This document shows positions 2,505-28,321 of a stretch of 36,495 bases of DNA, one piece after another (position 1 is the first letter of the stretch; the number at the start of each line of letters is the position of its first letter). Made by a program: the position numbers and the translations under genes. Source of the DNA: Sulfurovaceae bacterium (GTDB taxonomy: Bacteria; Campylobacterota; Campylobacteria; Campylobacterales; Sulfurovaceae). The DNA lies in NCBI GenBank assembly GCA_028714675.1, contig JAQTLV010000010.1, positions 1 through 36,495 on the forward strand, in the 5' to 3' direction. The notes beneath the pieces were generated by a model. The model saw only the letters and a program-made list of their open reading frames with translations, did not search any database and was not told the origin of the DNA.

Positions 2505-4193
<1,689 letters not shown>

Positions 4194-4201
<8 letters not shown>

Positions 4202-7767: not shown

Positions 7768-7910
7768 TTTTTTACCTCATCGCCTTTGCTGTCGGCTACA
7801 ACCAAACTTGCTTCATGGTTTTTATTTGCAACCAGAGAACTGCATATTTTAAATATACGAGTATCATATTTTGGATGAGCAGATGTCAAATGGGTTATCT
7901 TGATGCTCAT
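7764..7910 (-). pseudogene. Truncated duplicate of a glycosyltransferase N-terminus
   Basis: A 48-codon reading frame opening MSIKITHLTSAHPKYDTRIF and running to LVVADSKGDEVKK before a TGA. It matches the first about 48 residues of the glycosyltransferase at 5985-7103, with one codon deleted (the full copy has FIKMC where this has FKIC). By hand count about 114 of 140 aligned nucleotides are identical. AGAGG lies upstream, so it may still be translated, and its stop overlaps the acetyltransferase ATG. Everything after residue 48 is missing, so it cannot be an active transferase. It is best read as the scar of a duplication or replacement event. Confidence 0.8.
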
Positions 7911-7992
7911 TTTAATACCTCTATTCAAGTTACTGTTCATTTTAATTATAATATATCCTAAATATTATAGTAACTATAAAAAGTTTAGAAGT
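7911..7992 (-). promoter_or_regulatory. AT-rich gap with possible internal promoter
   Basis: The largest gap inside the otherwise overlapping glycan operon. On the minus strand a TATAAT lies at 7945-7950, but the hexamer 17 bp upstream is poor. It could be a secondary promoter for the downstream half of the operon or a scar of the rearrangement that left the adjacent pseudogene. The evidence is weak. Confidence 0.25.
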
Positions 7993-9114
7993 TTATTTAG
8001 CATACTTCAACACTTTTTCAATTATGTACAAAATTGCCTCATCAGTAAGACTTGGATATATTGGAAGAGATAAAGACTTCTCAAACAATTCATTTGCTAC
8101 TTTAAAATCTTCATCTTTATATCCAAATTTATCTTTATAATAAGGATGTTTATGGACTGGTATAAAATGCACAGAAGCCCCTATGCCATTTTCTTTTAGT
8201 TTATTATACAGTTCATCTCTATTGTTTACTTTTATCACATATAGATGCCAACTAGTTTCTCTGTCATTTTTAACACTTGGCAATATTATATTTGAGTTTT
8301 TAAATCCTTCATTATACTTTTTGGCTACCCTTGCTCTTTGTTCGCACATCCAATCAACTTTCTTTAGTTGTTCAATTCCAAGTGATGCATTAATGTCGGT
8401 AGTGTTATATTTATTACCATTGTCAACTACTTCATAATACCAACCGCCCCCACTATATCTGTCCCAAACATCCCTGCTTATTCCATGAAGTCTATTAATT
8501 TTCATAGATTTTGCATATTCATCATTGCGTGTAGTTGCCATGCCGCCTTCCCCAGTAGAAAGTGTTTTTGTAGCATAAAAGCTAAAGCAAGTTATATCTG
8601 TACCATCTAGCTTTCCCACAAGAGTCCCCTTATATTCCGATGGCAATGCATGGGCTGCATCTTCTATTACTTTTAAATTGTATTTCTTGGCTATAGTATA
8701 TATTTCATCCATATCACATGGCTGTCCTGCAAAATGAACTGGGATTATAGCCTTTGTTTTGGGTGTGATTAGCTCTTCTATTTTGGTTACATCAATATTG
8801 TGGGTATTTGTTTCTATATCGCAAAGTATTGGAATAGCATCGAAATATGTAACTACTTCGGCGGTAGCTATAAACGTCATTGTTGGTAATATTACTTCAT
8901 CCCCTCTCTTTAGTCCTATAGCTTTTAATGCCAAATGGAGTGCCGCTGTTGCACTATTCATGCTAACTGCGTTGGATGAGCCAACATATTCATTAAATTT
9001 TTGCTCAAATTCTATAGTTTTTGGTCCCATTGTTAGCCATCCAGACCTTATTGATTCTACCACAGCATTAATCTCATCTTCTGTTGTATATGTTTTATGA
9101 AATGGTATGTTCAT
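7993..9114 (-). CDS. DegT/DnrJ/EryC1/StrS aminotransferase, ArnB/PseC-like
   Basis: A 373-residue PLP-dependent sugar aminotransferase. The IPFHKTYTTEDEINAVVESI opening and SGWLTMGPKTIEFE motif match ArnB/PseC/VioA-type enzymes. MNSATAALHLAL binds the phosphate, VIEDAAHALPSEYKG is the aspartate motif, and the Schiff-base lysine is K183 in YATKTLSTGEGG. It should aminate a 4-keto-6-deoxy or 4-keto sugar nucleotide; the dehydratase or oxidase making that substrate is not in the window. The ATG at 9114 has GGGG 7 nt upstream and overlaps the end of the previous glycosyltransferase by 20 bp. It is the second of three family members in this operon, and a central block (TPKTKAIIPV, GQPCDMDEI) is shared with the WbpE-like one. 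Confidence 0.83.
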   Translation of the reverse strand: MNIPFHKTYTTEDEINAVVESIRSGWLTMGPKTIEFEQKFNEYVGSSNAVSMNSATAALHLALKAIGLKRGDEVILPTMTFIATAEVVTYFDAIPILCDIETNTHNIDVTKIEELITPKTKAIIPVHFAGQPCDMDEIYTIAKKYNLKVIEDAAHALPSEYKGTLVGKLDGTDITCFSFYATKTLSTGEGGMATTRNDEYAKSMKINRLHGISRDVWDRYSGGGWYYEVVDNGNKYNTTDINASLGIEQLKKVDWMCEQRARVAKKYNEGFKNSNIILPSVKNDRETSWHLYVIKVNNRDELYNKLKENGIGASVHFIPVHKHPYYKDKFGYKDEDFKVANELFEKSLSLPIYPSLTDEAILYIIEKVLKYAK

Positions 9115-10150
9115 TATTGTTCCCCTTTTTTTCAACAAGATTATTATAGATAGCTATAAACTTTCTTTTATTGTATTGTTTTGAATATTCTTTTTTTCTA
9201 ATATTGTTAACATCTCTTAAAAGTTTAATATCTATGTTTTGATATTTCTCCAAGCATATATTGTCCAAATTTGGCTCAATAAATCCGTTAACTTTGTCTA
9301 AAACATGTTCACGGTTTGCAGGAAGGTTTGATAAAAAACATATGCAATTATTTGAAATAGCTTCGAGCAAACTTATAGATGTTGCATCACTAGATGGAAT
9401 AGATATATAAATTTTAGCCTTTTGGTACATATCATTATTTATATTAGAATCAACCCATCCTATAAAATTAATGTTCTCTTCGATGTGCAAATCTCTAGCT
9501 AATTTCTTTAATTTCTCGGTATTGTCTCCAGTAGCGCCTATAACCAATCTCCAGTCTTTATTTTTAGTAACAAATTTATTAAAAGCATAGATAATTTTTT
9601 CAATATTATATAAAGATTTATGAAGTCTATTGGAATATATAATGTTTTCTTTTTGGGACCAATCTGTCTCTTTTAACTCTATACCAAAATTTGCAACTTT
9701 AATATCTGCATTAGGATTATATGTTTTAATTTCATTTGCCATATAAAAAGAATCTGATGTTACAATATCCACATATTTTAATACAAATTCCAACATTTTT
9801 TTAAAAATAATATTTCTTTTTGGATTGATGAGAATATCGCTGCCCCAAGCAGTTAGTACTTTTGGAATTTTTATATTTTTCAATCCCAACAAAGAAACAA
9901 AAGCATAGCTATTGGCTTGATGAATATGGATTATAGATGGTTCAAACTCTTTTGCTATATTTTTTATTTTATTGGCTGAAAAAAATATTTTTACCCCCAA
10001 ACTAAAATCAATTTCTATTGTATTGATGTTGTATTCATCATTTCTTTTGTTTGTTAAAAGTAGTATGTCATCAAAATAATCTTGTATTAATGATATATAA
10101 TTGTATATATGGACAGTACCACTTCCTATTATTAAAAGCTTCTTATTCAT
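9095..10150 (-). CDS. GT4 glycosyltransferase
   Basis: A 351-residue GT-B glycosyltransferase. The N-terminal domain starts KKLLIIGSGTVHIYNYISLI and includes SIIHIHQANSYAF and LTAWGSDILINPKR, a pattern seen in glycosyltransferases of surface glycan loci. The donor domain contains NFIGWVDSNINN and a variant of the donor-binding motif, SIPSSDATSISLLEAISN, with the conserved glutamate of the E-x7-E region. The ATG at 10150 is chosen because GGTGGA lies just upstream; an ATG at 10162 has no better site. It overlaps the preceding acyltransferase by 8 bp. The donor is unknown. Confidence 0.78.
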   Translation of the reverse strand: MNKKLLIIGSGTVHIYNYISLIQDYFDDILLLTNKRNDEYNINTIEIDFSLGVKIFFSANKIKNIAKEFEPSIIHIHQANSYAFVSLLGLKNIKIPKVLTAWGSDILINPKRNIIFKKMLEFVLKYVDIVTSDSFYMANEIKTYNPNADIKVANFGIELKETDWSQKENIIYSNRLHKSLYNIEKIIYAFNKFVTKNKDWRLVIGATGDNTEKLKKLARDLHIEENINFIGWVDSNINNDMYQKAKIYISIPSSDATSISLLEAISNNCICFLSNLPANREHVLDKVNGFIEPNLDNICLEKYQNIDIKLLRDVNNIRKKEYSKQYNKRKFIAIYNNLVEKKGNNNEHTIS

Positions 10151-10727
10151 TATTCCACCCATTATAGTATTCTTGGAATTGTTGATTATTTTGTAAAAAA
10201 ATACTGTCTACTTCTTTTGTATATCCAACAATTTTAGCTGGCGAGCCATGTGCTATAGCATAATCTGGAAGATCACTGTTTACAAAACTATTTGCTCCAA
10301 CAATGCATCCCTTGCCTATAGTAACACCATTTGTAATAATTGCTCCGGTGCCAATAAAAGTAAATTTACCTATCTTTACTCTTCCAAGTTTGTAACCTTC
10401 GCTTTCTATACCATTGCATAAAGAGTATTTATAGCCAAATAGTCTTATGCTTATATGTGAACTATGCGTCAATATAGATACTCTCGCCGATATTTGACAT
10501 CCATCATCTATTTCCAATCCAGCGGTACCATCGAGTATGGCATAATGACCAATATAAACATTATTTCCTAAAGTTATCTGTTTTTTATTTACAAAATCAA
10601 CTGTATTGCCAAATCTTGTATTTTTTGCTATATTTCCATTTGGATTGATATAAATGTTATTTAACATTCTTGGTTTATTAATCCATTGAAAAAATCTAGC
10701 CCTAATAAACAATAGTAAGTTTTTCAT
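10143..10727 (-). CDS. Hexapeptide-repeat acyltransferase (WbbJ/maa-like)
   Basis: A 194-residue acyltransferase with left-handed beta-helix repeats from about residue 30 onward, including NNVYIGHYAILDGTAGLEI and KFTFIGTGAIITNGVTIGKG, and a closing HGSPAKIVGY motif at the acetyl-CoA site. The ILTHSSHIS segment has the histidines expected near the active site. It belongs to the WbbJ/maltose-acetyltransferase-like group that O- or N-acetylates sugars during polysaccharide assembly. The start at 10727 has AGGGA 6 nt upstream and overlaps the flippase stop as ATGA. It is one of four hexapeptide acyltransferases in the operon (with PglD, the CatB-like protein and WbpD). Confidence 0.8.
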   Translation of the reverse strand: MKNLLLFIRARFFQWINKPRMLNNIYINPNGNIAKNTRFGNTVDFVNKKQITLGNNVYIGHYAILDGTAGLEIDDGCQISARVSILTHSSHISIRLFGYKYSLCNGIESEGYKLGRVKIGKFTFIGTGAIITNGVTIGKGCIVGANSFVNSDLPDYAIAHGSPAKIVGYTKEVDSIFLQNNQQFQEYYNGWNNE

Positions 10728-11992
10728 TTTATTTCCCTGCATTGTAAAACTTTCAATATCCAAATGATATTATAACCCAATACTAAGCAATTAGAAATTG
10801 TAAAAAATATTAAAGATGTATATACATTTCCTATTTTTATTCCAATATATATTGACAAACTTGTTAATATTATTAAAACAATGCTTACCTTCAAAATCTT
10901 TTTTTGCATTCCAACAAGACTTGGTATAAAAGAAATTGTCGAAACTACCAAATTTAAAAGTATCCAAGGAAAAAGTATCTGAGTATAAACGCCGGCTTCT
11001 CTCCAATTTTCTCCAAATACAAATGCAAAAATTGTAGGCGCAAATGCAACTATAACTATAAGTGGTAAAATTATTTTTTTTATAAATGCCTTTAAAAAGC
11101 GAATTGTAAATCCATAGCTATCTTCATTATTATTATATAGTTCACTTACTTTTTGATTATAAACTTTGGCGCTTGCATTTGAAAGTATCCCCAATGGTGC
11201 AAGAACTATCCTCGTAGCTAAAGCATAAAAACCAACTATATTGACGCCAAAAAATGCAGAAAATAAAAAAGTTGGTACATTTGAAGAGAGGTTATTTAGC
11301 ATAGCATGTGGTGCTTGGAATTTTGGAAAATCAATATATTTTTTAGCCTGATTCATCATAGACTCTTCTGAAATTGATTTTAGTAGCTTTTTATTGTTCA
11401 ACAGTGCTTTAGCCAATCTCATATTAGAAAAAATACTTGAAAGTATTTGCCCGCTCACAAGTCCAGCGGCTCCACTTTTTATAGTTCCTATAGCTATTTG
11501 GGAAATTGCCAAAATAATTGATTTTATTATTGTTGCTTTGGTTATATTAGCATAGTGTTTCTTGCGATTATTCCAATATGTTAGCAAATTAAAAAGTCCT
11601 ATAAAGAATATGGTTAATGGAGCAAACCAAAGCCAAGTTTCAATCTCTTTATTATTAAATAAATTTGCAATTTCTTTGTTCAAAACAGCTACAATCAAAA
11701 AAAGAAAAATGGATATAAAAGCATTTACCAAAAACCCTAAAGCAAAAATATTTATAGCATCTTCATCATCTTTTGGAACCAATATGGCTTGCTCATATCT
11801 AAGCGAAGATACAACACTAAAGAATCCAACAATAGCCACAAAAAGTGCAAATACTCCAAAGTCTTGTGGTGAATAGATACGAGTTAAAATAGGACTAATT
11901 GCAATTGGTATGGCTTGAGCTATAGTCGTACCTGTCATAAGTGTCAATACATTACGACTAAATTCACTTTTTGGTTTTAGTTTATTTATCAT
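10724..11992 (-). CDS. wzx: Wzx-type oligosaccharide flippase
   Basis: A 422-residue polytopic membrane protein with roughly 12 hydrophobic segments and the N-terminal layout of the polysaccharide-transport (Wzx) family: SRNVLTLMTGTTIAQAIPIA then SPILTRIYSPQDFGVFAL. These proteins flip undecaprenyl-diphosphate-linked glycans across the inner membrane. Downstream segments such as FGVNIVGFYALATRIV and VFGENWREAGVY also fit the family. It overlaps the acyltransferase-3 gene stop by 1 bp (TAATG) and the next acyltransferase by 4 bp. No Wzy polymerase or PglK-type ABC flippase is seen nearby, so a Wzx-dependent route is favoured, with polymerisation or transfer genes elsewhere. Confidence 0.82.
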   Translation of the reverse strand: MINKLKPKSEFSRNVLTLMTGTTIAQAIPIAISPILTRIYSPQDFGVFALFVAIVGFFSVVSSLRYEQAILVPKDDEDAINIFALGFLVNAFISIFLFLIVAVLNKEIANLFNNKEIETWLWFAPLTIFFIGLFNLLTYWNNRKKHYANITKATIIKSIILAISQIAIGTIKSGAAGLVSGQILSSIFSNMRLAKALLNNKKLLKSISEESMMNQAKKYIDFPKFQAPHAMLNNLSSNVPTFLFSAFFGVNIVGFYALATRIVLAPLGILSNASAKVYNQKVSELYNNNEDSYGFTIRFLKAFIKKIILPLIVIVAFAPTIFAFVFGENWREAGVYTQILFPWILLNLVVSTISFIPSLVGMQKKILKVSIVLIILTSLSIYIGIKIGNVYTSLIFFTISNCLVLGYNIIWILKVLQCREIK

Positions 11993-13926
11993 TATTTAAA
12001 TATTTGCCTTACAATTTCGTTTGATTGGAGTTTGGCACCTTCAAGATTTAAATGATTATCATCAAAATAAATCAATTTCCCATTGACTATTGCATGACAC
12101 TCTTTATTATCACAAAAAATATTTTGTGTATCAATAATTTTTATATTTTTATACTTTGAAGCAATCCTCTTGACATTATATATAAATTTTTGTTGTCTTT
12201 TTAAAAAACTTTCTTTTGATATGCTACAGTTCAATTTATACGGAAATTTAAAAAATGGTCTTTTTAAACACTCTTCAGGGTAAAACCCCATTTCAGGATT
12301 TTCTAGTACAAAATATAATTCGATATTATTTTGATTAAAATATTTAAATGTTGCTTCTAAATTATCATAAAAATCAACTATTTGAAAATTTTGTCTACTT
12401 ATGTCGCTTTTTTCATTTAACAAAAAACTGCTTTTTGTAGCATATATCTGACCTCTTGATACCCAAATAACTTTTTTTGGTTTTAGTTTTTCTAAAACTT
12501 GATATATGGTCTTATTTTTTTCTTTGATTTTTTTATCCAAGCTACTAATAGTCTCTATAAATGGTGGTATTGCGTTATTTGATATACAAAGAGTTCTATA
12601 TCCATGTTTCAAAATTTCCTTAGAAAGAGCGTCATATATACTATAAGCATGGGAATCGCCGATAAGCACAAAAAATGGCTTCTGCATAGTCTTCATGTTT
12701 GATCTTATATGAGATATATTTGGGTTTTTTCCTGCGATATTTTCAATAATTTTAGTGCCATTCGCATCTTTAAAAGGTGCTCTGTCAAAATATGCATTAT
12801 TTATACTTTTAATATATTCTCTATTTGGCAATCCTCTAGTTTTATAGACATAGTGTGACATTGTGGCAAGCATTAATACAATGACCATTAAAAAAAACAT
12901 AAAGTAATAACTATTTTGTCTTCTGGCTTTTATCTCAATTAATCTATATGTCAAATAAGACAAAACAATGGAAACAAAAGCTATTCCTAGCCCAATATTT
13001 TGCACATCAAGTCCAAAAGTGTATGCATATCCTATGATTGCATAATGCCATAAATAAAGAGGAAAACTAATAAGACCTAAAAAAATCAAAATTATTGAAG
13101 AAAAAATTTGTTCATTTTCTTCGTATAAAAGCAAAAGTATTAAAAAGCCAGTGGATATTGCTATGAAAAATGTTTTAAAGATACTAAATTCTACATTCTC
13201 ATACCCAAATCCTATTGAAATAAAAAAAAATAAATATATTACTGGTTTTAGTTTTTTTATTTGTTTTTTTATATCATATCTATCATTCACAGCAAAAACT
13301 AGTCCACCAAAACACAACTCCCAAAATCTTGATAATGAGTGGTAGAAAGGGTCTACATCTATAAATTGTGGTAGTATCAATAAAGCTATAAATACTATGG
13401 ATAAAGAAGATACTAGTTTAAATTTAAATTTATATAGGATAAAAATTAACATGGGCCAAAAAATGTAAAATTGCTCTTCTATAGACAAAGACCAAAAATG
13501 TAAAAGTGGTTTTTTTGTACTTGCTTCGTCCCAATATCCAGATTCACCAATAAGTCTAAAATTTTCATAAAATAAAGCTGACGATTGTATATGTTTTGCT
13601 AAGCCAACAAATTCTAAAGGAAATAAAAATATATATCCTATAATAAATGAAAATATCAAAACTATAATCATTGCAGGAAAAATTCTTCTTACTCTATTTC
13701 TATAAAATTCTTTAAAGCTAAATGTGCCAGATATCAACTTGGTATATATTATTTGAGTAATAAGAAAACCAGAGAGTACAAAAAATATATCTACGCCCAC
13801 ATATCCAAAAGAAAATTCTTTGGGATATATATGAAATAAAAGCACGAGCAAAATAGCTATGCCACGAAGACCATCTATAGATTTATTATATGCAAGAGAA
13901 TGATTGACAATTGGCAAAAAATTCAT
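11992..13926 (-). CDS. Acyltransferase-3 with C-terminal SGNH domain (OafA-like)
   Basis: A 644-residue two-domain protein. Residues about 10-340 form an acyltransferase-3 domain with some ten membrane helices, opening SIDGLRGIAILLVLLFHIY (active-site His at position 32) and containing FWSLSIEEQFYIFWP. After a linker, residues about 415-640 form an SGNH hydrolase-like domain with GDSHA at 423-427 and the closing D-x-x-H of FDDNHLN at 622-625. OafA-type fusions O-acetylate surface polysaccharides: the membrane part moves the acyl group across the membrane and the extracytoplasmic SGNH part transfers it. The catalytic residues of both domains are present. It starts immediately after the WbpE-like gene (no gap). 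Confidence 0.88.
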   Translation of the reverse strand: MNFLPIVNHSLAYNKSIDGLRGIAILLVLLFHIYPKEFSFGYVGVDIFFVLSGFLITQIIYTKLISGTFSFKEFYRNRVRRIFPAMIIVLIFSFIIGYIFLFPLEFVGLAKHIQSSALFYENFRLIGESGYWDEASTKKPLLHFWSLSIEEQFYIFWPMLIFILYKFKFKLVSSLSIVFIALLILPQFIDVDPFYHSLSRFWELCFGGLVFAVNDRYDIKKQIKKLKPVIYLFFFISIGFGYENVEFSIFKTFFIAISTGFLILLLLYEENEQIFSSIILIFLGLISFPLYLWHYAIIGYAYTFGLDVQNIGLGIAFVSIVLSYLTYRLIEIKARRQNSYYFMFFLMVIVLMLATMSHYVYKTRGLPNREYIKSINNAYFDRAPFKDANGTKIIENIAGKNPNISHIRSNMKTMQKPFFVLIGDSHAYSIYDALSKEILKHGYRTLCISNNAIPPFIETISSLDKKIKEKNKTIYQVLEKLKPKKVIWVSRGQIYATKSSFLLNEKSDISRQNFQIVDFYDNLEATFKYFNQNNIELYFVLENPEMGFYPEECLKRPFFKFPYKLNCSISKESFLKRQQKFIYNVKRIASKYKNIKIIDTQNIFCDNKECHAIVNGKLIYFDDNHLNLEGAKLQSNEIVRQIFK

Positions 13927-15015
13927 CTACAGGCTCTTAACTATATACTCTATCTCTTCATCACTCAAATAAGGATTCATTGGCAAACTAATAATTTCAT
14001 TTGCAATCATTTCTGAAATTGGGAAATCTCCATTTTTGTATCCTAAATAGGCAAAACACTCTTGTAAGTGAAGTGGTAATGGATAGTGAACTGCCGTTGG
14101 AACGCCTAGATTTTTAAGTTTTTCTTGCATTTCATCTCGATTTTTTACTCTAATAGAATACTGTGCAAAAGCACTTGTTCTGTTCTCTTTGATAGAGGGC
14201 AATAAAATATCTTTCTTTGAAGATAAAAGATTTGTATATTTTGATGCAACTTCTTGCCTCAAAGCTAAATCTTTTTTATAGTATTTAAGTTTTACATTCA
14301 AGATCGCAGCTTGAATGGTATCAAGGCGTCCACCCATACCTATATATCTATGATAGTATCTTTTTGTTTGTCCGTGAACTCTTAAGCTTTTTATCTTATC
14401 TGCCAGCTCATCATCATTGACAAATACAGCTCCTCCATCGCCATAGCACCCCAGTGGTTTTGCAGGGAAAAAGCTCGTACATGATATATCACCTAAATTG
14501 CTGTCACTTTTGCATTTATATGTGCTTCCAAAGCTTTGTGCGCCATCTATAATAACTTTTATATTATGCTTTTTGGCAATTGTCATAATCTCATCCATAT
14601 CGCATGGTTGCCCATAAAGTGAAACGGGAATAATCGCTTTTGTTTTGGGGGTAATTGCGGCTTCTATTTTGGCAGAATCTATATTATATGTTTTTTCATC
14701 AATATCAACAAATACAGGAGTTGCACCAACTAGTGCTATTGTTTCAGCAGTTGCTATAAAAGTAAAAGGAGTTGTTATAACCTCATCCCCAGATTTAATA
14801 TCTAAAGCCATCATCGCTAAGAGCAATGCGTCTGTTCCGCTAGAACAAGATATAGCATGTTTTGCGCCAGTAAAAATTTGAAGAGCATTTTCAAGCTCAT
14901 CTATCTCTTCACCCATAATAAAATTACATTTTCTTGCAACTTTTAAAATTGCTGGTTCTATCTCATCTTTATACAACTCATGCTGGTATTGTAAATTTGC
15001 AAAATCTATCTTCAT
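13927..15015 (-). CDS. wbpE: WbpE-like UDP-3-keto-GlcNAcA aminotransferase
   Basis: A 362-residue DegT/DnrJ/EryC1/StrS aminotransferase close to WbpE/WlbC. The opening MKIDFANLQYQHELYKDEIE, SSGTDALLLAMMAL phosphate site and VIIDGAQSFGSTYK aspartate motif are typical. The Schiff-base lysine is K187 in FFPAKPLGCYGDGG, equivalent to K185 of Pseudomonas WbpE. It transfers an amino group from glutamate to C3 of UDP-2-acetamido-3-keto-glucuronate. The ATG at 15015 is preceded by AGGAT. Its position next to WbpD- and WbpB-like genes supports the substrate assignment more strongly than sequence alone. Confidence 0.87.
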   Translation of the reverse strand: MKIDFANLQYQHELYKDEIEPAILKVARKCNFIMGEEIDELENALQIFTGAKHAISCSSGTDALLLAMMALDIKSGDEVITTPFTFIATAETIALVGATPVFVDIDEKTYNIDSAKIEAAITPKTKAIIPVSLYGQPCDMDEIMTIAKKHNIKVIIDGAQSFGSTYKCKSDSNLGDISCTSFFPAKPLGCYGDGGAVFVNDDELADKIKSLRVHGQTKRYYHRYIGMGGRLDTIQAAILNVKLKYYKKDLALRQEVASKYTNLLSSKKDILLPSIKENRTSAFAQYSIRVKNRDEMQEKLKNLGVPTAVHYPLPLHLQECFAYLGYKNGDFPISEMIANEIISLPMNPYLSDEEIEYIVKSL

Positions 15016-15017
15016 TT

Positions 15018-15593
15018 CTATCCTATAACTAATAAATTATTATCAACAATCTTATATTTACTGCCATCAAAACCATCAACTGCTTCATTATTTTCATCAA
15101 ACTCAAGAGTATTGCCAGCTCTACTTGCCCAACCAATTTGTCTAGCTGGAACACCAACCATTAGTGCATAAGGTTTTACATCCTTGTTTATCACAGCACC
15201 GCTGCCAATGAGTGCATATTCTCCTATAGTAACGCCACAAATTATGGTTGCGTTTGCCCCTATAGAGCATCCTTTTTTGAGAAGTGTTTTTTTAAACTCA
15301 TCTCGTCTTGTTATAAATGCTCTTGGATTTGTAACATTGGTAAATACCATTGATGGTCCCAAAAATACATCATCCTCACACTCTACTCCTTCATAAATAG
15401 AAACATTATTTTGTACTTTTACGCCATTGCCTATATTTACATTGGGTCCTACAACACAATTTTGCCCAAAAGAACAATTTTCTCCAATACATGAACCACT
15501 TAATATATGTGAAAAGTGCCAAACCTTTGTATTGTCGCCAATAATTACTCCATCATCAATAAAGGAAGAGGGATGGGTGAAGTAATTTGACAT
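15018..15593 (-). CDS. wbpD: WbpD-like UDP-3-amino-GlcNAcA N-acetyltransferase
   Basis: A 191-residue hexapeptide acyltransferase, the same length as Pseudomonas WbpD. Beta-helix repeats start at [20 protein letters not shown] and run through [20 protein letters not shown]. The family's inserted loop [18 protein letters not shown] follows, then the closing [11 protein letters not shown] motif. WbpD acetylates the 3-amino group to give UDP-2,3-diacetamido-2,3-dideoxyglucuronic acid. The ATG at 15593 overlaps the WbpB-like TGA by one base (TGATG); the ribosome site is weak, so translational coupling is likely. A TTG further upstream would lie inside wbpB. Confidence 0.88.
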
Positions 15594-16552
15594 CAACCAA
15601 TCACTTTGGAGCAAAATGGATGATAATCGCCACTTAATCCTACAGGAGCAAGGGATCGAATATTTGAAACTATGTTGATAGAATTTCTAGCCTCTTCAAG
15701 CCCAAATCCACCATTATTTAGTATGTGTTTATAACTTGTTGTATGAAGATCTGTAAAACCTTCACTAAATTCAAACTCTTCTCCATTAACTGTGATGCTT
15801 CTAAATGTAGTTTTACCACTCTCTTTAATATCATTTGGAATATAGTCATAATTTACAGAAAGAAACCATCTCACTCTTGCATTTTTAAGCTTCATATATC
15901 CTGCATTGACATCAGCTTGCTTGATGTGAACCACATTATCCTCATTCTCACCAAATATCCAACTAAGCATGTCAAAGAAGTGTACACCTATATTACTAGC
16001 GATTCCACCGCTTTTATCTTCATCGCCTTTCCAACTCTCAAAATACCATTTGCCTCTACTTGTGAGGTAAGTCAAATCTATGTCATAAATCTTATCTGGA
16101 TTTGCTTTAAGCTCTTTGGCAATCTTCTCTTTTAGTGCTATTATAGAATCGTGCAAACGAAGTTGCAGTATATTGTAAACTTTTTTTCCTGTTTCTTTTT
16201 CAATATTAGCAAGATAATCAATATCTTTGGGACTTAGCACAAGTGGTTTTTCACATATGGCATTAGCTCCTATTCTGAGTGTAAACCCTATATGATGTTT
16301 GTGTAGATAATTTGGTGTGGTAATGGCAATATATTCTATTTTATCTTTTTCTTCTCTTTGCCATGTATCCACAAAGCTCTCAAACCTCTCAAACTCTGTA
16401 AAAAAATCAGCTTTTGGGAAATTGCTATCCATGATGCCTATGCCATCATATGGATCAAAAGAGACAACAAGCTCATTGCCAGTCTCTTTAATTGCCTTCA
16501 TATGTCTTGGGGCTATATATCCTGCTGCTCCAATTAAAGCAAAATTTTTCAT
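15593..16552 (-). CDS. wbpB: WbpB/WlbA-like UDP-GlcNAcA 3-dehydrogenase
   Basis: A 319-residue Gfo/Idh/MocA oxidoreductase. The NAD-binding N-terminus opens [19 protein letters not shown], a WbpB hallmark, and the EKP motif is at residues 101-103 ([10 protein letters not shown]). The substrate domain contains [11 protein letters not shown] and [20 protein letters not shown], with the family histidine. The enzyme oxidises C3 of UDP-GlcNAc-uronate to the 3-keto sugar that WbpE aminates. The ATG has GGAG 5 nt upstream. It is separated from the dehydrogenase gene by 31 bp, one of the few gaps in the operon. Confidence 0.88.
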
Positions 16553-16583
16553 CTTTTCTCCTATAAATTTATTAAAAAATTAA

Positions 16584-17852
16584 TTATAATTTCCATGTAG
16601 GATTTTTTACAATCCCTTTAACATCTATAATGATTGCATTTCCATGACTCATGCTTTCAAAATTTTCTTTTGAAATATGCTTAAATTTCTCATGTGCAAC
16701 AGCAACAATAATAGAGTCATATTTTTTAGAATTCAATGGAAGTTCATCTAAAAAATTTAATTTTTTAGTCTCTTTGTCGCTTTTATCCACCCAATAATCA
16801 TAAACATCTACATGACACTCGTACTCTTCAAGTTCCTTGATAATATCAAGAACTTTTGAGTTTCTCATATCAGGACAGTCTTCTTTAAATGTAACCCCCA
16901 TAACAAGAATATTCGCACCTTTTAATTTTTTATCCTCTTTTATCATAAATTTAATTGCCTTATCGGCTATCAATTTGCTCATTCCATTATTTATATGTCT
17001 TGCACCAAGAATTAAATTTGGTGTATAGCCCAAAACTTGTGCTTTGTGAGTTAGATAGTATGGATCTACGCCTATACAATGTCCACCAACTAAACCTGGC
17101 TTTAATCTTATAAAGTTCCATTTTGTTCCAGCTGCTTCAAGAACTGCATTTGTATCTATCTTCATTACATCAAAAATCATTGCAAGTTCATTCATGAGAG
17201 CTATGTTTACATCTCTTTGGGTATTTTCTATAACCTTTGCAGCTTCAGCAACTTTGATAGATGGTGCCATGTGTGTGCCTGCAATAATAATAGATTTATA
17301 AAGTTCGTCAACTTTTTTTGCAATATCAGGAGTGCTGCCAGATGTAATTTTGAGTATTTTTGTAACTGTATGCTCTTTGTCGCCAGGATTGATTCTCTCA
17401 GGACTATAACCACAGAAAAAACCGACATTAAATTTAAGTCCGCTTCCTTCTTCTAAAATCGGCACACAAACCTCTTCTGTAACTCCTGGATAAACTGTAC
17501 TTTCATAAATTACTATATCGCCTTGTTTTATCACTTTTGATATACTCTGTGTTGATTTTACGATAGGGGTTAAGTCTGGTTCATTATCATCATTGATAGG
17601 AGTTGGAACAGTTACTATGTATATATTGCATTCCGATGTATCATCAAGGTTTGTACTAAACTTCATGCCATTATCTAAGCACTCTTTTACTTGCTTACTT
17701 GAAAGTTCTAAAGTTCTATCAAATCCGCCAAGCAATTCATCGACTCTATCTTTATTTATGTCAAATCCAACTACTTTATACTTACTGCTAAATGCATGAG
17801 CTAGAGGTAAACCAACATACCCAAGCCCAATTATACATATTTTATCACTCAC
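16584..17852 (-). CDS. UDP-N-acetylhexosamine 6-dehydrogenase, TviB/WbpO type
   Basis: A 422-residue UDP-glucose/GDP-mannose dehydrogenase family enzyme. The NAD site is CIIGLGYVGLPLAHAF near the N-terminus, and the central domain contains YSPERINPGDKEH and KVIENTQRDVNIALMNELA. The catalytic cysteine is C259 in GLVGGHCIGVDPYYLT. The sequence reads much more like TviB and WbpO (UDP-GlcNAc or UDP-GalNAc to the uronic acid) than like glucose dehydrogenases. As first gene of the operon it supplies UDP-GlcNAcA to the WbpB-D-E enzymes. It starts with GTG at 17852, with AAAAGG 5 nt upstream; an overlapping ATG two bases before stops at once. Confidence 0.85.
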   Translation of the reverse strand: MSDKICIIGLGYVGLPLAHAFSSKYKVVGFDINKDRVDELLGGFDRTLELSSKQVKECLDNGMKFSTNLDDTSECNIYIVTVPTPINDDNEPDLTPIVKSTQSISKVIKQGDIVIYESTVYPGVTEEVCVPILEEGSGLKFNVGFFCGYSPERINPGDKEHTVTKILKITSGSTPDIAKKVDELYKSIIIAGTHMAPSIKVAEAAKVIENTQRDVNIALMNELAMIFDVMKIDTNAVLEAAGTKWNFIRLKPGLVGGHCIGVDPYYLTHKAQVLGYTPNLILGARHINNGMSKLIADKAIKFMIKEDKKLKGANILVMGVTFKEDCPDMRNSKVLDIIKELEEYECHVDVYDYWVDKSDKETKKLNFLDELPLNSKKYDSIIVAVAHEKFKHISKENFESMSHGNAIIIDVKGIVKNPTWKL

Positions 17853-23689: not shown

Positions 23690-23906
23690 ACAAATATCCT
23701 TGCTAATCTTTTTTATTAATTGTACAAAAAGGCTATACAACAAATGTTGAAGAAAGAAATTATACCTTAAATATTCTACTAATTTAAATTGTATATTGAG
23801 CCATTTGTACTTAGATTAAGGTAATAATAAATAGCTGTGATAGAAGATGTATTGCTTTAAAGCTCGTATTTTAGGGGCTTTATTAATATTGATTGAATTG
23901 ATTTGA

Positions 23907-23938
23907 ATTGTATAAAAGTAGTTGGTGGTGCGATAAAG
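23907..23938. repeat. Left attachment repeat (duplicated tRNA-Leu 3' end)
   Basis: Direct copy of 28218-28250, with the first 26 bp identical and one base missing before the final ATAAAG. It contains the last about 13 bases of tRNA-Leu and 19 bases of downstream flank. The block about 53 bp to its left (from 23854) also matches the block at the same distance left of the right copy (from 28165), by hand count about 37 of 53 positions. Confidence 0.8.
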
Positions 23939-23946
23939 TCCACCGT

Positions 23947-23970
23947 AAAGCTCTATTTTAAGGGGCTTTT
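23947..23970. terminator. Terminator-like hairpin inside the left end
   Basis: AAAGCTC pairs with GGGCTTT (one G-T wobble) around a 9-nt loop and is followed by a short T run. Related sequences occur at 23859-23881 and 28169-28190, so three copies of this motif flank the two attachment repeats. It could stop transcription of tRNA-Leu or of element genes. Confidence 0.45.
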
Positions 23971-23986
23971 ATAGCTATTGGTGCAA

Positions 23987-24010
23987 AAAGGTACTACAAA
24001 AGGTACTACA
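23987..24010 (+). repeat. Left arm repeats, 2 x AAAGGTACTACA
   Basis: Two perfect head-to-tail copies of the 12-mer AAAGGTACTACA (23987-23998 and 23999-24010), about 55 bp inside the left attachment repeat. The same 12-mer occurs next to the right end (28091-28114), in the same orientation. Iterated short repeats on both sides of a core are the usual arm-type binding sites of tyrosine integrases. Confidence 0.75.
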
Positions 24011-24151
24011 AGATTAAAACGCTACCGTAAAAATTAAAAATGTCTAATAGTTCAAGTGTGATTGTTTAAAAGCATTCTATCACAAATAATCTAAAATAGT
24101 ATAGGGCTTGTTGGCTGTTCGATTTGCTTACTAATTCCTAATATGACGGCT

Positions 24152-24262
24152 TTAAACTGTTCGATTAAATAGGCTATTGCTTTTTTTATTCCCATAACTA
24201 TCACAAAAGCCGTTATAGCCATTATTTGATGTTCCTAAAAAGTGTTGCATTTTAGCGTTCAT
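24152..24262 (-). CDS. Possible 36-aa small protein in the element
   Basis: A 36-codon frame opening MNAKMQHFLGTSNNGYNGF and ending SLFNRTV. AAAAGGA lies about 8 nt upstream of the ATG, a good ribosome site. The composition (Asn, Gly, Ser and aromatic residues) is not that of random translation of AT-rich DNA, but no family was recognised. The frame is continuous with the degraded reading frame just upstream (24374-24541), so it may instead be the tail of that broken gene. Confidence 0.35.
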   Translation of the reverse strand: MNAKMQHFLGTSNNGYNGFCDSYGNKKSNSLFNRTV

Positions 24263-24373
24263 TTTATATGTCCTTTTTGAGTTATAAGTCCTTGTAGCTG
24301 ATGTTTGAGGATTTTTAAAGTGTTCACTTTTAGCTTGTATTTCACTCGGACTTTTATCGGACTTTTTTAGTAT

Positions 24374-24541
24374 CTACTTGGATAGTGGGGAGCTTATAGT
24401 GATAGATACATTTTCAACGCTCAAGCCATTAGCTCTTAATATCTCTTTGATAACTTATTCCACCTGCTGTGGTGTGTGGTCTTTTGGTAACTTCTTAAAT
24501 GCTTCTATAAATGGATTTTTTTCTTTTTTCTGTTTACTCAT
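24374..24541 (-). pseudogene. Small element gene with in-frame stops
   Basis: The ATG at 24541 overlaps the stop of the 222-aa gene as ATGA. The frame reads MSKQKKEKNPFIEAFKKLP then KDHTPQQVE, a TAA at 24455-24457, and then continues as a credible protein (VIKEILRANGLSVENVSITI) to a TAG at 24374. A CAA-to-TAA change would join the two parts. After the TAG the same frame stays open into the 36-aa ORF downstream. This suggests a gene of about 54 to 115 codons broken by nonsense mutations. A real 28-aa peptide is the alternative. Confidence 0.45.
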
Positions 24542-25206
24542 TGCTTCATTCCTTTATTGATTATCTCTATAAAATCATCTATCGGTAAATTTAACTCTTT
24601 TGGGTTTGGTATGTGTATTGTTGCTTCATATCTGTATAATGGCGTAGCAAGGCTATTTTTAGAGGCTTTATCATAAATACAAACACTTCTAATCATAAGT
24701 AGGTTTGGGCTGTTTATGTAGCAAGTAGTGCCTCTATTTGATGATAATATCTTGGTGGTGTAGTGCTTGGATAAATTCTCATAGTTTGGAGCTATTGGAG
24801 TATCAAAAGACAAATCAATCTCAAAATCTCTATACTTTTTAAAATCCACTTTGTAAGTAAGAGTATCTACTATTTGAGATATAAGCTCTCTTGGTGGTGG
24901 GTCTTTATGATATTGCTTCAGTCCAAAGATAACCATAATCGCTTTTTTTCTGTTTTGTTTATCTTTTCTTTTGTAGTAGTAGATATTATAATCTTCAAGT
25001 TGATAAACTGTTGATAGTTCTGTAAGTGATAATCTCTTTTTGATTTGATTGTATTTAAAATCACTTTTTTTTAGTTTGTGCCACTTCCCTAAATTTTCTA
25101 AACTTTTTTGCTTGTATTGTAGTGAAAATTCTATCCTAATGGTATCTATGTAAAAGTTCAATATTTTACTGTTAGTTGATGTTTCTAGCTGTTCTAAAAT
25201 ATTCAA
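24538..25206 (-). CDS. Possible replication-initiator-like protein of the element
   Basis: A 222-residue basic, mostly beta/alpha protein starting with TTG at 25206, supported by GAGAGG 6 nt upstream. Three segments recall plasmid and phage rolling-circle initiators of the Rep_trans type: NFYIDTIRIEF near the N-terminus, FEIDLSFDTP in the middle, and RSVCIYDKASKNSL followed by YRYEATIHI near residue 170-200 (compare the family's Y-D-K ... R-x-E pattern). The catalytic tyrosine and metal-binding histidines cannot be assigned with confidence. Replication of an excised circle would be the expected role. The assignment is tentative; it may simply be an uncharacterised element protein. Confidence 0.45.
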   Translation of the reverse strand: MNILEQLETSTNSKILNFYIDTIRIEFSLQYKQKSLENLGKWHKLKKSDFKYNQIKKRLSLTELSTVYQLEDYNIYYYKRKDKQNRKKAIMVIFGLKQYHKDPPPRELISQIVDTLTYKVDFKKYRDFEIDLSFDTPIAPNYENLSKHYTTKILSSNRGTTCYINSPNLLMIRSVCIYDKASKNSLATPLYRYEATIHIPNPKELNLPIDDFIEIINKGMKQ

Positions 25207-25318
25207 GTTTTACCTCTCTTTTTTACTCTACATTACGGAAGTGAATTCTTAAGCCACTTTTTGCACCACTTGATTAACCTCATCAAATACCGCCCCTGCT
25301 ATAAATCGGAGTTGATTT

Positions 25319-25350
25319 ACACTCCTAAAAATAAATAGGAGTGTTTTTAT
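25319..25350 (+). terminator. Plus-strand intrinsic terminator antisense to the element operon
   Basis: A perfect 9-bp stem (ACACTCCTA at 25319-25327 with TAGGAGTGT at 25336-25344), 8-nt loop and a run of T on the plus strand. All element genes are on the minus strand, so this terminator faces against them. On the minus strand the stem is followed by AAATCAAC and would not terminate. It lies in the gap (25207-25398) upstream of the possible replication initiator. Confidence 0.7.
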
Positions 25351-25398
25351 CTCTTAGACTACATTAGACTTAATTGCAATACACACTTTTTTCAAATC

Positions 25399-25656
25399 TT
25401 AAACGGCTCGTTTTAGCCTGTTTAAATATGCTTTTGCAAGTTCTAAATTCTCATCTGTTGGGTTTAATCGTCTTTCCAGATGATACCCTCTATTTGTGAG
25501 GTTTGGCACCTCTACTTCTATGAGTTCAATACCTTTGTTTTTGATAGTACAAAAATATTGATTTGAATTTTTTGCACCCTCGATAAATGATAACCTATCG
25601 CCATTTAATAACTTGGTTAGTGCTATAATCAAATAGCTTGTTTTTCTATTTTCCAT
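25399..25656 (-). CDS. Hypothetical 85-aa element protein
   Basis: An 85-residue protein: ENRKTSYLIIALTKLLNGD, then a beta-rich middle with IKNKGIELIEVEVPNL and a basic C-terminal helix (ENLELAKAYLNRLKRAV). It may be a small DNA-binding or regulatory protein, but no family was recognised. Its ATG overlaps the stop of the AlpA-like gene by one base (TAATG), so the two are translationally coupled and probably act together in control of the element. Confidence 0.65.
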   Translation of the reverse strand: MENRKTSYLIIALTKLLNGDRLSFIEGAKNSNQYFCTIKNKGIELIEVEVPNLTNRGYHLERRLNPTDENLELAKAYLNRLKRAV

Positions 25657-25826
25657 TATGCACCACCATTTATAAAAGCGTCAAGCTCTGATTTTTTGAA
25701 TATCGTCACTCTGTCCGAAATTTTGTAGGCTTTGATTTTAGATTGAGCTACATACGCCCATAGTGTCGATAAGCCCACTCCTAAATACTTGTGAGCTTCT
25801 TTGGCTCTCATATTTTCCATTGTCAT
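25656..25826 (-). CDS. AlpA/HTH_17-type regulator or excisionase
   Basis: A 56-residue protein. Its helix-turn-helix reads MRAKEAHKYLGVGLSTLWAY and is followed by the wing VAQSKIKAYKISDRVTIFKKSELDAF (shown here as pieces: KIKAYKIS, RVTIFKKSEL). This is the AlpA / excisionase-family DNA-binding fold that typically controls integrase expression or drives excision. Starts at 25826, 25820 and 25811 are all possible; the first is preceded by AGAAAGA. The stop overlaps the next ATG. A cluster of dyads lies upstream (25864-25910). Confidence 0.78.
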   Translation of the reverse strand: MTMENMRAKEAHKYLGVGLSTLWAYVAQSKIKAYKISDRVTIFKKSELDAFINGGA

Positions 25827-25863
25827 TTTAAATCTTTCTATTTCATACCTTGAAATAAAAGGA

Positions 25864-25910
25864 CTTTAGCTAAAGATTTCAAATCTCACGGTTTTAGAAT
25901 TTGTGAGATT
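25864..25910. promoter_or_regulatory. Cluster of dyads upstream of the AlpA-like gene
   Basis: Three symmetric sites are packed together: the perfect 12-bp palindrome CTTTAGCTAAAG (25864-25875), GATTTCAAATC (25875-25885), and AATCTCAC/GTGAGATT arms (25882-25889 and 25903-25910). A further CTATCACAAAT word at about 25949 shares TCACAAAT with the inverted arm and recurs at about 24077. This is a likely control region for the element's lysogeny/excision decision. Confidence 0.5.
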
Positions 25911-25986
25911 AAGTAATTACAAGTTGGATTTTATTAAACAAGATTGTCCTATCACAAATTAGATTCTATTTCTAAAAGGACATTTT

Positions 25987-26736
25987 TTAGGTTCGTGTTG
26001 AGTGAGTTAAATCTATTCCAGCCATTGTTTCATAGATGTATTTTATTTGTACAAAATTATCAAGATTTATTTTTCTTGTAAATGAAATATCTCTACTAAA
26101 ATATTTTTTAATGAGTAAATTAACGGCTCTAAGAATTTGTTCTTTGCTAAAATCATCTTTAAGTAAGTGATACATTTCAAACAATAAATTTTCAAACAAT
26201 TGTCTTTCTGTGTAATGTTTATTTTCTAATGTGTCCTTAAAATATGCTAAATACTCAACTGTCTTATAGCCTTTCGGAATAAAATTATGGTCTATCTGCT
26301 CACCATATTCAATTCTTTGAATATAATCATTTACCTCAATATCTGTATCCATTATTAACTCTATTATTTTATTTATTTTTTTGGTTATATTTTTACTCGT
26401 ATTTCTTGCCTTTAAATCTCTGTTTGGGCTAGAGTATTCATTATAATACTTTAAAGCCTTGTGTGTTTTGGCAAGTAAATAAAAAATATCCTTTAAACAT
26501 TGACTATCTAAATCATAAAAATCAATAAATGGATTTATGAATTTGTCGTTTGAGAGTGTTAATCGTTCTATGGCTATTATATCTACATTTGAGAGGAGTG
26601 TATCCCAATGCAACAATAACCATTCTTTGGCTGTCATTTGCGTTTTTGCTTCCATAAATGTTTCTCTTACACTTTCGCAAGGTATATAATCATCATCTAT
26701 CTCTTTTATTTTTTTTAAAAAATCTTCTCTACCCAT
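25987..26736 (-). CDS. Unknown 249-aa protein coupled to the integrase
   Basis: A 249-residue, largely helical acidic/basic protein with no signal peptide or membrane segment. Recognisable stretches include DYIPCESVRETFMEAK, AKEWLLLHWDTLLSNVDIIA and a C-terminal basic helix region (LIKKYFSRDISFTRKIN). No catalytic motif or known family was recognised. Its ATG overlaps the integrase stop by 8 bp, so it is made with the integrase. In small elements this position often holds cargo, defence, or helper-interference genes, or a recombination directionality partner, but the sequence does not decide. Confidence 0.75.
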   Translation of the reverse strand: MGREDFLKKIKEIDDDYIPCESVRETFMEAKTQMTAKEWLLLHWDTLLSNVDIIAIERLTLSNDKFINPFIDFYDLDSQCLKDIFYLLAKTHKALKYYNEYSSPNRDLKARNTSKNITKKINKIIELIMDTDIEVNDYIQRIEYGEQIDHNFIPKGYKTVEYLAYFKDTLENKHYTERQLFENLLFEMYHLLKDDFSKEQILRAVNLLIKKYFSRDISFTRKINLDNFVQIKYIYETMAGIDLTHSTRT

Positions 26737-28018
26737 TTTTCACCTCGTCAAGATAATTACTCCACCACTCCAAAAGTGGTATCATTTGGTTTGTATAATC
26801 TGCTCTATGCATATAAGCCAAAATGGACGGGTTCTTTTCTATGTGGTCTAAAACCGCCTCTTTTGTTTCTTTTGTAGCATTGTGGATATGCGTGTATGTT
26901 TCTGCCAAACTTCTAAATGTGCCTCTAAAGCTGTGCATTGTTTGTTTCTTTGGTTCTACTCCAAAACCCATTATCTTTAAAGCCTTATTTGGACTTTCTT
27001 TGTTTATGTGTTGGTTGCTTTTATTGAAACTTGGAAATACCCATACATCGTGATTAAAATATTTTTGTGTATCTTGTAGTATTTCTATGACTTGTTTTGT
27101 GAGTGGTAATTTGAAGTTTGGAATATTTTTATTTTTAACTTTCATTAGATTTCGTGGTATCGTTAAAATTCTATTTTCAAAATCCACATACTCCCATTTT
27201 AAACTACTGATATTTTCTGCTCTTAATGGAATATGGCAAACAAGTTTTAAAAGTTGTTTGATGATGATATTGTGTGGATAATTGTCTATCGCAGTTAATA
27301 GCTCTTTTAGTGTTGCCTCGTCTGTTATCTTTGGTCTATGCTTGTTATCTACTTTTGCCATAGTGTTTTTTTTGTCTATGTTTGACACGATATTCCTATC
27401 TATGTCTATAAAGCCTTTACTTACTGCATAAAGCCAAATGCCTTTACAATGAGAAAATAATCTATCTGCTGTTTCTGCTTTGTCATTACTGATGTCTGTT
27501 AAAATGTTTGATAATTCTGCTCTTGATATTTTACTGATAGATTTCGATGAGATTATAAAGCCCTCGTTGTTGTACTCGCTAAAAGGTTTAAGTATATGAT
27601 TTTCTATCCTTGCGGTCTCTTTTTTGAGCGTAACCGCACTCACTCTTTTTGAGTAGTTATCTAGCCACCCTTGCACCACTCTATGAAGTTGTGAATTATC
27701 GTTTAGCTTTTCATTCTCTTTTTGATGATGTTCTTTTAGTTTATCTTCTCTTTTAAGCTCTAAGGGGTCGGCATTATCATTTAATGCTCTTTGATGTTCA
27801 CGGGCTTTATCTCTTGCATTAGCAAGTGTAACTTTTGGATAAGCTCCGATTGATATTTTTCTTTGCGTATTAGTCAATGGACTTTTGTATCTAAAAATCC
27901 ATAACTTACTGTTTGGCTTGATATGCAAAAATAGATTTTTCATAGATTTATCTTTTGCAAAAAATTCTTTACCATTGTACTCGATTGCTTTTATTTCATT
28001 ATCTGTAACAAAGTCCAC
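26729..28018 (-). CDS. int: P4-type tyrosine integrase
   Basis: A 429-residue site-specific recombinase. The N-terminal arm-binding (DUF4102-like) domain covers about residues 10-95, with KNLFLHIKPNSKLWIFRYKS and ISIGAYPKVTLANARDKA. The core-binding domain follows, then the catalytic domain with R266 (HIPLRAENI), H362 and R365 (MHSFRGTF), H392 (VLDHIE) and nucleophile Y402 (LAYMHRADY). All expected active-site residues are present. It starts with GTG at 28018, with AAAGG 7 nt upstream, and lies next to its target tRNA-Leu, as is usual for P4-like integrases. It should catalyse integration at and excision from the tRNA 3' end. Confidence 0.92.
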   Translation of the reverse strand: MDFVTDNEIKAIEYNGKEFFAKDKSMKNLFLHIKPNSKLWIFRYKSPLTNTQRKISIGAYPKVTLANARDKAREHQRALNDNADPLELKREDKLKEHHQKENEKLNDNSQLHRVVQGWLDNYSKRVSAVTLKKETARIENHILKPFSEYNNEGFIISSKSISKISRAELSNILTDISNDKAETADRLFSHCKGIWLYAVSKGFIDIDRNIVSNIDKKNTMAKVDNKHRPKITDEATLKELLTAIDNYPHNIIIKQLLKLVCHIPLRAENISSLKWEYVDFENRILTIPRNLMKVKNKNIPNFKLPLTKQVIEILQDTQKYFNHDVWVFPSFNKSNQHINKESPNKALKIMGFGVEPKKQTMHSFRGTFRSLAETYTHIHNATKETKEAVLDHIEKNPSILAYMHRADYTNQMIPLLEWWSNYLDEVKNG

Positions 28019-28040
28019 ATATAAGCCTTTAGAGTTATCT

Positions 28041-28114
28041 CGTAGTACCTTTTAAAATAAAAAATATTGTCGAACCGTCTATAAAAGGTAAAAGGTACTA
28101 CAAAAGGTACTTCA
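28041..28114 (+). repeat. Right arm repeats (AAAGGTACTACA family)
   Basis: AAAGGTACTACA at 28091-28102 is followed directly by AAAGGTACTTCA at 28103-28114, mirroring the left end. A partial AAAAGGTA lies at 28083-28090, and an inverted copy (11 of 12 bases, on the minus strand) lies at 28041-28052. These sit between the integrase start and the attachment site, where integrase arm sites and autoregulation are expected. Confidence 0.72.
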
Positions 28115-28217
28115 AGATTATAGCTGTTGTTGAATTAAGTTAAACTGTATTAGATTACAATATGGCTTTAAAGCTTGTATTTAAGGGGTGTTTTGATTGT
28201 TATTTAGATTGTATTAG

Positions 28218-28250
28218 ATTGTATAAAAGTAGTTGGTGGTGCGGATAAAG
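28218..28250. repeat. Right attachment repeat overlapping tRNA-Leu 3' end
   Basis: Copy of 23907-23938. It includes the CCA end and last acceptor-stem bases of tRNA-Leu (from 28237) and 19 bases of flank belonging to the element side. Since the element lies 3' of the tRNA, this copy restores an intact tRNA gene after integration. Confidence 0.8.
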
Positions 28251-28321
28251 AGACTCGAACTCCCATGCCTCGCGGCACCAGATCCTAAGTCTGGCGTGTC
28301 TACCAATTTCACCATATCCGC
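28237..28321 (-). tRNA. tRNA-Leu (UAG)
   Basis: An 85-nt class II tRNA with encoded CCA. The anticodon loop CTTAGGA gives UAG, flanked by CCAGA/TCTGG, and the long variable arm typical of leucine is present (GCCGCGAGGC). It is the last gene of the five-tRNA operon, and its 3' end is the attachment site of the integrated element. Confidence 0.96.

Follow-up and report, generated by a model that had tools for sequence, protein, structure and literature searches.

A 4.3-kb integrated element at tRNA-Leu(UAG) in a Sulfurovaceae bacterium: a candidate satellite-like island with a Rep_trans-like replication initiator

We analysed a 36,495-nt stretch of DNA from a Sulfurovaceae bacterium (assembly GCA_028714675.1, contig JAQTLV010000010.1; hereafter the window) and describe a 4.3-kb integrated mobile element located beside its tRNA-Leu(UAG) gene (28237-28321, minus strand), which combines a P4-type integrase and an AlpA-type regulator with a protein predicted to fold like rolling-circle replication initiators. 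The element is flanked by a perfect 26-bp direct repeat, as the first-pass annotation of this DNA had reported, forming a distal attachment (att) core at 23907-23932 and a tRNA-proximal core at 28218-28243 with a start-to-start distance of 4311 bp, while simulating the 5.4-kb region 200 times with a first-order Markov model gave repeats of at most 19 bp. The right copy had been placed inside the tRNA gene, the integration target, which holds for only 7 of its 26 bases (28237-28243, the last seven nucleotides of tRNA-Leu), the other 19 lying past the tRNA 3’ end.

Further putative recognition sites surround these cores. The motif GGTACTWC occurs five times in the window, always just inside one of the two element ends (0.6 expected; five reached by no shuffle), with two sites, GGTACTAC, at the distal end (23990-24009, plus strand) and three at the integrase end (28042-28113; 28042 on the minus, 28094 and 28106 on the plus strand), and these are probably arm-type sites of the integrase. 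In addition, a P-arm motif, CCCCTTAAATACAAGCTTTAAA, is found downstream of tRNA-Leu (28167-28188, minus strand) and again just outside the distal repeat (23856-23877, minus strand), so that the perfect core is embedded in a longer, imperfect repeat of 83 bp with 80% identity. These two are the only copies in the bacterium’s own 1.75-Mb genome with up to two mismatches allowed. Because relatives integrated at tRNA-Ala, at tmRNA or elsewhere have a comparable sequence downstream of the targeted RNA gene, the motif looks element-borne and the outer copy is probably a relic of an earlier integration.

Between the cores lie five intact genes and one broken small open reading frame (ORF), where about six genes had been counted before, and the co-directional arrangement on the minus strand noted at that stage was confirmed. 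The 429-aa tyrosine integrase (26729-28018) is indeed intact, with an Arm-DNA-bind_3 domain (PF13356, E 3.3e-17), a Phage_integrase domain (PF00589, E 4.7e-12), a match to phrog_1 (E 1.2e-38) and the catalytic residues R266, H362xxR365, H392 and Y402. The start codon of the following gene (25987-26736), coding for a 249-aa protein, overlaps the integrase stop by 8 nt. This protein matched no family and has no relative among 150 family genomes; its single-sequence structural model (predicted local distance difference test, pLDDT, 46) was too poor for use. The alpA leader (25827-25986) contains an inverted repeat, AATCTCAC...GTGAGATT, which shows compensating changes in the related element of genome G005 (AATCTTGC/GCAAGATT) and may serve as an operator or a hairpin. 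It is followed by the 56-aa AlpA-type regulator (25656-25826) with a helix-turn-helix (HTH) domain (HTH_17, PF12728, E 2.7e-9), and by a gene for an 85-aa protein (25399-25656), which recurs among relatives as family F3 and is probably a winged-helix DNA-binding protein. The rep leader (25207-25398) is non-coding, conserved among three elements and carries stable hairpins (z -2.9, -2.2 and -1.8), which makes it a candidate origin or control RNA; the 222-aa gene follows (24538-25206). Downstream lies the remnant of a small ORF (24392-24541) with an in-frame TAA at 24455-24457, matching a 65-aa ORF of the G005 element (64% identity, E 1.4e-18) that overlaps the rep stop there, and the distal end is completed by about 0.5 kb that appears to be non-coding. 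In G005, tandem repeats of about 67 bp (L015 10719-10881) stand directly past this small ORF and could be origin or packaging iterons.

In agreement with the first-pass annotation, searches of Pfam, PHROGs and NCBIfam detected no capsid, portal, terminase, relaxase or other known structural, packaging or conjugation family within the element, nor did any of its proteins match a primase in Pfam. Moreover, a PADLOC search of the element proteins and of ten integrase-adjacent genes of relatives gave no convincing match to a defence function, the mad1 match of AlpA being a generic HTH match only.

Two proteins had been described as belonging to no recognised family, which stands for the 249-aa protein; the 222-aa protein, in contrast, is recognisable by structure. 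In sequence searches it had no match in Pfam (E up to 1), PHROGs or NCBIfam, and a profile of its family found no PDB sequence. An AlphaFold model built from seven homologues (pLDDT 82.8; predicted template-modelling score, pTM, 0.82) aligns with the known catalytic domain over all but its first 14 residues, leaving no N-terminal extension, and has as its best PDB match the initiator RepSTK1 (4cij; Foldseek E 8e-6, probability 1.00; Z 9.0 over 182 residues, 4.3 Å), which together with RepDE (4cwe and 4cwc; Z 8.5 and 8.0) ranks above a run of TATA-binding protein (TBP) structures. Matches to TBP and kinases (Z up to 7.4) were taken as common curved-sheet architecture, and the TBP likeness of the Rep_trans fold has been remarked upon before (PMC4797284); an Inoviridae REP was among the matches to viral models. 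The Rep_trans catalytic set consists of the metal ligands D46, D142 and E214, the nucleophile Y191 and K193 (PMC4797284), and these residues align by order, motif and spacing with D21, D131, E194, Y178 and K180, none of which varies among the 22 homologues (26-79% identity to the window protein); D131 was chosen over the equally invariant D135 by motif order. According to this model, the 222-aa protein (hereafter Rep) folds like pT181-type Rep_trans initiators and would act as a rolling-circle replication initiator.

A profile search over 397 Campylobacterota genomes from 68 genera, with one genome per species, identified Rep homologues in 31 genomes and 12 genera, the named hosts including Sulfurovum sp. 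UBA5622, Aliarcobacter and metagenome-assembled genomes of Arcobacteraceae. Of 29 rep loci read in detail, 28 have an integrase near rep, which shares the strand of rep in 27, and the one exception is truncated by the end of its contig; AlpA-like genes stand within 4.5 kb of rep in most. The conserved order is integrase, variable gene, AlpA-like gene, small DNA-binding-like genes and rep, which supports the earlier suggestion of a satellite-like or plasmid-like integrative family in Campylobacterota. The order is bound neither to this window nor to tRNA-Leu and recurs at many targets (tRNA-Leu, -Ala, -SeC, -Met, -Phe, -Arg and -Ser, and tmRNA). The gene directly after the integrase (114-438 aa) starts within 11 nt of the integrase stop in 24 out of 27 cases and is mostly unrelated between elements.

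Judged by their flanking repeats, most groups of elements span 3.8-6.0 kb, against 7.4 kb at locus L083 and 8.4-11.5 kb in a Campylobacter-type group. The window element is thus small but not exceptionally so, with the G005 copy at about 3.9 kb (by inspection) and a degraded G054 copy at 3.8 kb. Campylobacter-type members carry an integrase, AlpA, a KilAC/ORF6N antirepressor and rep, and one 10-kb member (L086 2187-12270) has, within att repeats at tRNA-Ala, a TerS-like gene next to a large terminase gene (TerL; phrog_38, E 3e-118); an antirepressor and a ParE/RelE-like pair are also present between these repeats. For the TerS-like family a firm label was rejected, since viral contigs give only weak, partial relatives, and we keep the name terS-like. 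The intact-looking G005 copy has neither TerS nor further genes. Reading function from gene syntax, the window element would be a stripped form of the Campylobacter-type members.

The Rep modules of the window and G005 elements are 79% identical, whereas their integrases are only 31% identical and their targets differ (tRNA-Leu versus tRNA-Ala), indicating modular, mobile elements. Moreover, the G005 and L040 integrases are 95% identical and sit at tRNA-Ala and tmRNA, respectively, and rep occurs in just one other genome of the genus, at another tRNA. Relatives lacking the element while keeping its repeats and genes had been named at first pass as a sign against mobility. The sister genome G003 does keep the left junction, the flank and the repeats at tRNA-Leu, but the genes between them are entirely different, which speaks for a reused attachment site and not for core chromosome. 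They form a 2.7-kb cassette (L033 5572-8396) that has no integrase and comprises a dCTP deaminase-like gene (PF22769, E 5e-36) and two unassigned genes of 470 and 175 aa; it is possibly mobilised in trans and maybe defence-related. In G007, another sister genome, a type I restriction-modification system at tRNA-Leu (L034 2780-10273), likewise with no integrase, is bounded by the same junction as the window element and has TAGTACC arm sites at both ends. The same tRNA-Leu(UAG) target is used by the elements of G022 and G054, more distant family members with opposite polarity.

Taken together, we interpret the locus as a minimal, AlpA-type, satellite-like island, similar to phage-inducible chromosomal islands (PICIs) and their minimalist counterparts (PICMIs), in which a Rep_trans initiator replaces the primase; we give this reading a probability of roughly 0.6. 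It builds on the element anatomy, the att and arm sites, the modelled Rep fold with its conserved active site, the gene order of the family and the reuse of the site. We infer every step of the following cycle of excision, replication and packaging from this anatomy, the identity of the helper being the most inferential part. First, alpA would be switched on, probably by a helper phage that infects the cell or is induced in it, whereupon AlpA and the integrase, probably with the 249-aa protein, would excise the island at the 26-bp core, aided by the GGTACTWC arm sites. Rep might then nick the origin of the circle, perhaps in the rep leader, using Tyr178 and a metal ion coordinated by D21, D131 and E194, leading to rolling-circle replication of the excised circle. 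The helper would package and spread the copies, followed by reintegration at tRNA-Leu(UAG). A possible helper is present in the bacterium’s own genome, where a tailed prophage reaching a contig end (G000 contig C2, about 331084-362746; L190-L192) carries genes for an integrase, HNH, Terminase_4 (TerS), TerL_ATPase/nuclease, portal and tape measure; Terminase_6N was not found in this genome. The wider proposal, that such islands are phylum-wide Campylobacterota satellites with a Rep_trans rolling-circle initiator in place of the primase, a fast-changing, integrase-coupled excision partner and a fixed P-arm serving many tRNA and tmRNA sites as well as cassettes with no integrase of their own (type I restriction-modification, dCTP deaminase), is put forward tentatively, as a possibility we would not yet bet on.

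Several results weigh against the satellite interpretation. The PF02486 model does not detect the 222-aa family, and the position of RepD Arg189 is not conserved among its homologues. This copy has no terminase or capsid-remodelling gene, its small post-rep ORF is broken, and the TerS-like family of non-Campylobacter members has weak PHROG support (E 0.006-0.05). Furthermore, the longest exact match between the element and the resident prophage is 15 bp, a comparison in which a short cos site could be missed, and neither the 222-aa nor the 249-aa protein has a relative in viral contigs or phage records, collections whose sampling of Campylobacterota was not measured.

How the element spreads is where the readings differ most. 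It might be an integrative rolling-circle plasmid or an integrative and mobilizable element, whose Rep starts replication and may double as a MOBT-like relaxase, spreading by helper conjugation or natural transformation rather than inside phage particles. Rep_trans proteins do include the MOBT relaxases of integrative and conjugative elements (PMC6499999; PMC11389934), and the small members, here and in G005, hold the integrase, AlpA, Rep and small genes and nothing more. However, MOBT proteins have an N-terminal HTH whereas the 222-aa protein is a bare catalytic domain, the bacterium’s own genome has no conjugation gene of the VirB4 type, plasmid records encode no relative of the 222-aa protein, and the larger relatives bear phage antirepressors and terminase genes, all of which makes this explanation unlikely, if worth keeping in mind. 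Those terminase genes point to tailed phages and speak equally against a satellite of filamentous phages (inoviruses), comparable to RS1 or TLC of Vibrio cholerae and carried in filamentous particles. Some filamentous phages, CTXphi among them, do have Rep_trans-type initiators (PMC4797284), the structural match to Inoviridae REP fits, and Zot inoviruses are present in several relatives, but Zot was not found in the own genome or in G005. As a source of Rep the Zot prophages were rejected, since of four examined in Campylobacterota two encode another kind of Rep, the HUH type, and all four lack a relative of the 222-aa protein, and we regard a filamentous carrier as very improbable. Such Zot-type prophages lie at L102-L105 in relatives, and the one at L104 combines an AlpA-like gene with an integrase of the P4 type, suggesting that different kinds of element exchange their integration modules.

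Alternatively, the family may be mobile while the window copy has been left stranded and immobile. The in-frame stop in the post-rep ORF, the missing TerS-like gene and the apparently non-coding distal 0.5 kb would fit such decay, yet no damage is seen in the integrase, alpA, the 85-aa gene, rep, either core or any arm site, the intact-looking G005 copy is equally devoid of TerS, and PICMIs too usually have large non-coding regions with pseudogenes (PMC10803314), so that we consider a dead copy distinctly improbable. That ordinary chromosomal genes merely neighbour a tRNA and a chance repeat is refuted by the comparisons: the G+C content of the element (30.9%) differs little from that outside it in the window (32.1%), but the repeat exceeds the simulated maximum by 7 bp, rep is found in only one other genome of the genus, at a different tRNA, and the G003 site holds other genes.

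Elsewhere in the window, a polysaccharide or sugar biosynthesis cluster with glycosyltransferases, aminotransferases, acyltransferases and a flippase-like gene, as judged from translations alone, extends over 2505-17852, and a large, repeat-rich, adhesin-like ORF near the contig end (33841-36468) may be incomplete.

The literature searched, from which most subscription papers were absent, yielded no account of elements like these in Campylobacterota. If the satellite reading is true, the 3.9-4.3 kb forms would be among the smallest known satellites, the host range of such islands would take in Campylobacterota (Campylobacter and Arcobacter-like bacteria included), and replication modules could be exchanged within the same integration and control syntax, because the tailed-phage satellite families compared here (P4, PICI and PICMI) replicate via primase-type proteins. 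The element would then also be a very small system in which to study the minimal needs of a hitch-hiking element.

P4-like satellites are characterised by an Arm-DNA-bind_3 integrase, an AlpA/Vis-type regulator, a tRNA target, the alpha primase-helicase, sid, psu and delta. The window element likewise has a P4-type integrase with an Arm-DNA-bind_3 N-terminus, an AlpA-type regulator and a tRNA target, but alpha, sid, psu and delta were not detected in it with Pfam, PHROGs or NCBIfam. In the filamentous-phage satellites RS1 and TLC a Rep_trans/CRI-type replication protein is central and integration relies on host XerCD at dif. The central, predicted Rep_trans-type gene is shared, whereas a P4-type integrase of its own, acting at a tRNA, replaces XerCD and dif here. 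With the Rep_trans initiators themselves (pT181 RepC/RepD, RepSTK1; PMC4797284), the modelled 222-aa protein shares the TBP-like fold, three acidic ligands, the tyrosine and a lysine two residues on, with TxYxN resembling TxYxG, but it differs in the missing PF02486 match, in the Arg189 position and in its pairing with a chromosomal integration module. It also lacks the N-terminal HTH of MOBT relaxases (PMC6499999). Rep-Arvir of archaeal viruses and plasmids (PMC13107129) is similarly a distant Rep_trans relative detectable by structure alone, yet it is archaeal, fused to a winged HTH and has another motif III.

Gram-negative PICIs, organised into integration, Bro, replication and late zones (PMC10111431), resemble the element in having a co-directional integrase and alpA, a replication gene downstream and no structural genes (EcCICFT073; PMC6092414, PMC10111431), and the Campylobacter relatives add a Bro-like antirepressor zone and captured terminase genes; the window element differs by having no primase-helicase (pri-rep), a size of 4.3 kb instead of about 15 kb and no terS in this copy. 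A close parallel in layout is given by the PICMIs of the Vibrionaceae, which in Vibrio have the order integrase, iolg, alpA, small gene and primase, and in which iolg overlaps the integrase gene, belongs to 13 unrelated families and is required for excision in PICMI115 (PMC10803314). Both are tiny islands (6.1 kb for PICMI115) with a direct repeat at their ends, an integrase (PF00589), a highly variable integrase-overlapping gene, alpA (PF12728 here; PF05930 or PF12728 accepted for PICMIs), a small gene and a replication gene, and neither has capsid-remodelling genes (PMC10803314). The gene overlapping the integrase stop, frequent though not mandatory in the published PICMI model, is present with its 8-nt overlap, making the 249-aa gene the positional counterpart of iolg. 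Nevertheless, PICMIs sit at fis, use a DUF3987/DUF5906 primase and are excised, replicated and packaged when a helper phage infects, whereas the present family occupies tRNA and tmRNA genes of Campylobacterota, encodes a Rep_trans-like initiator and, in the case of the window element, has a candidate helper. With no fis site and no primase the element is therefore not a PICMI proper but a new variant of island relative to it.

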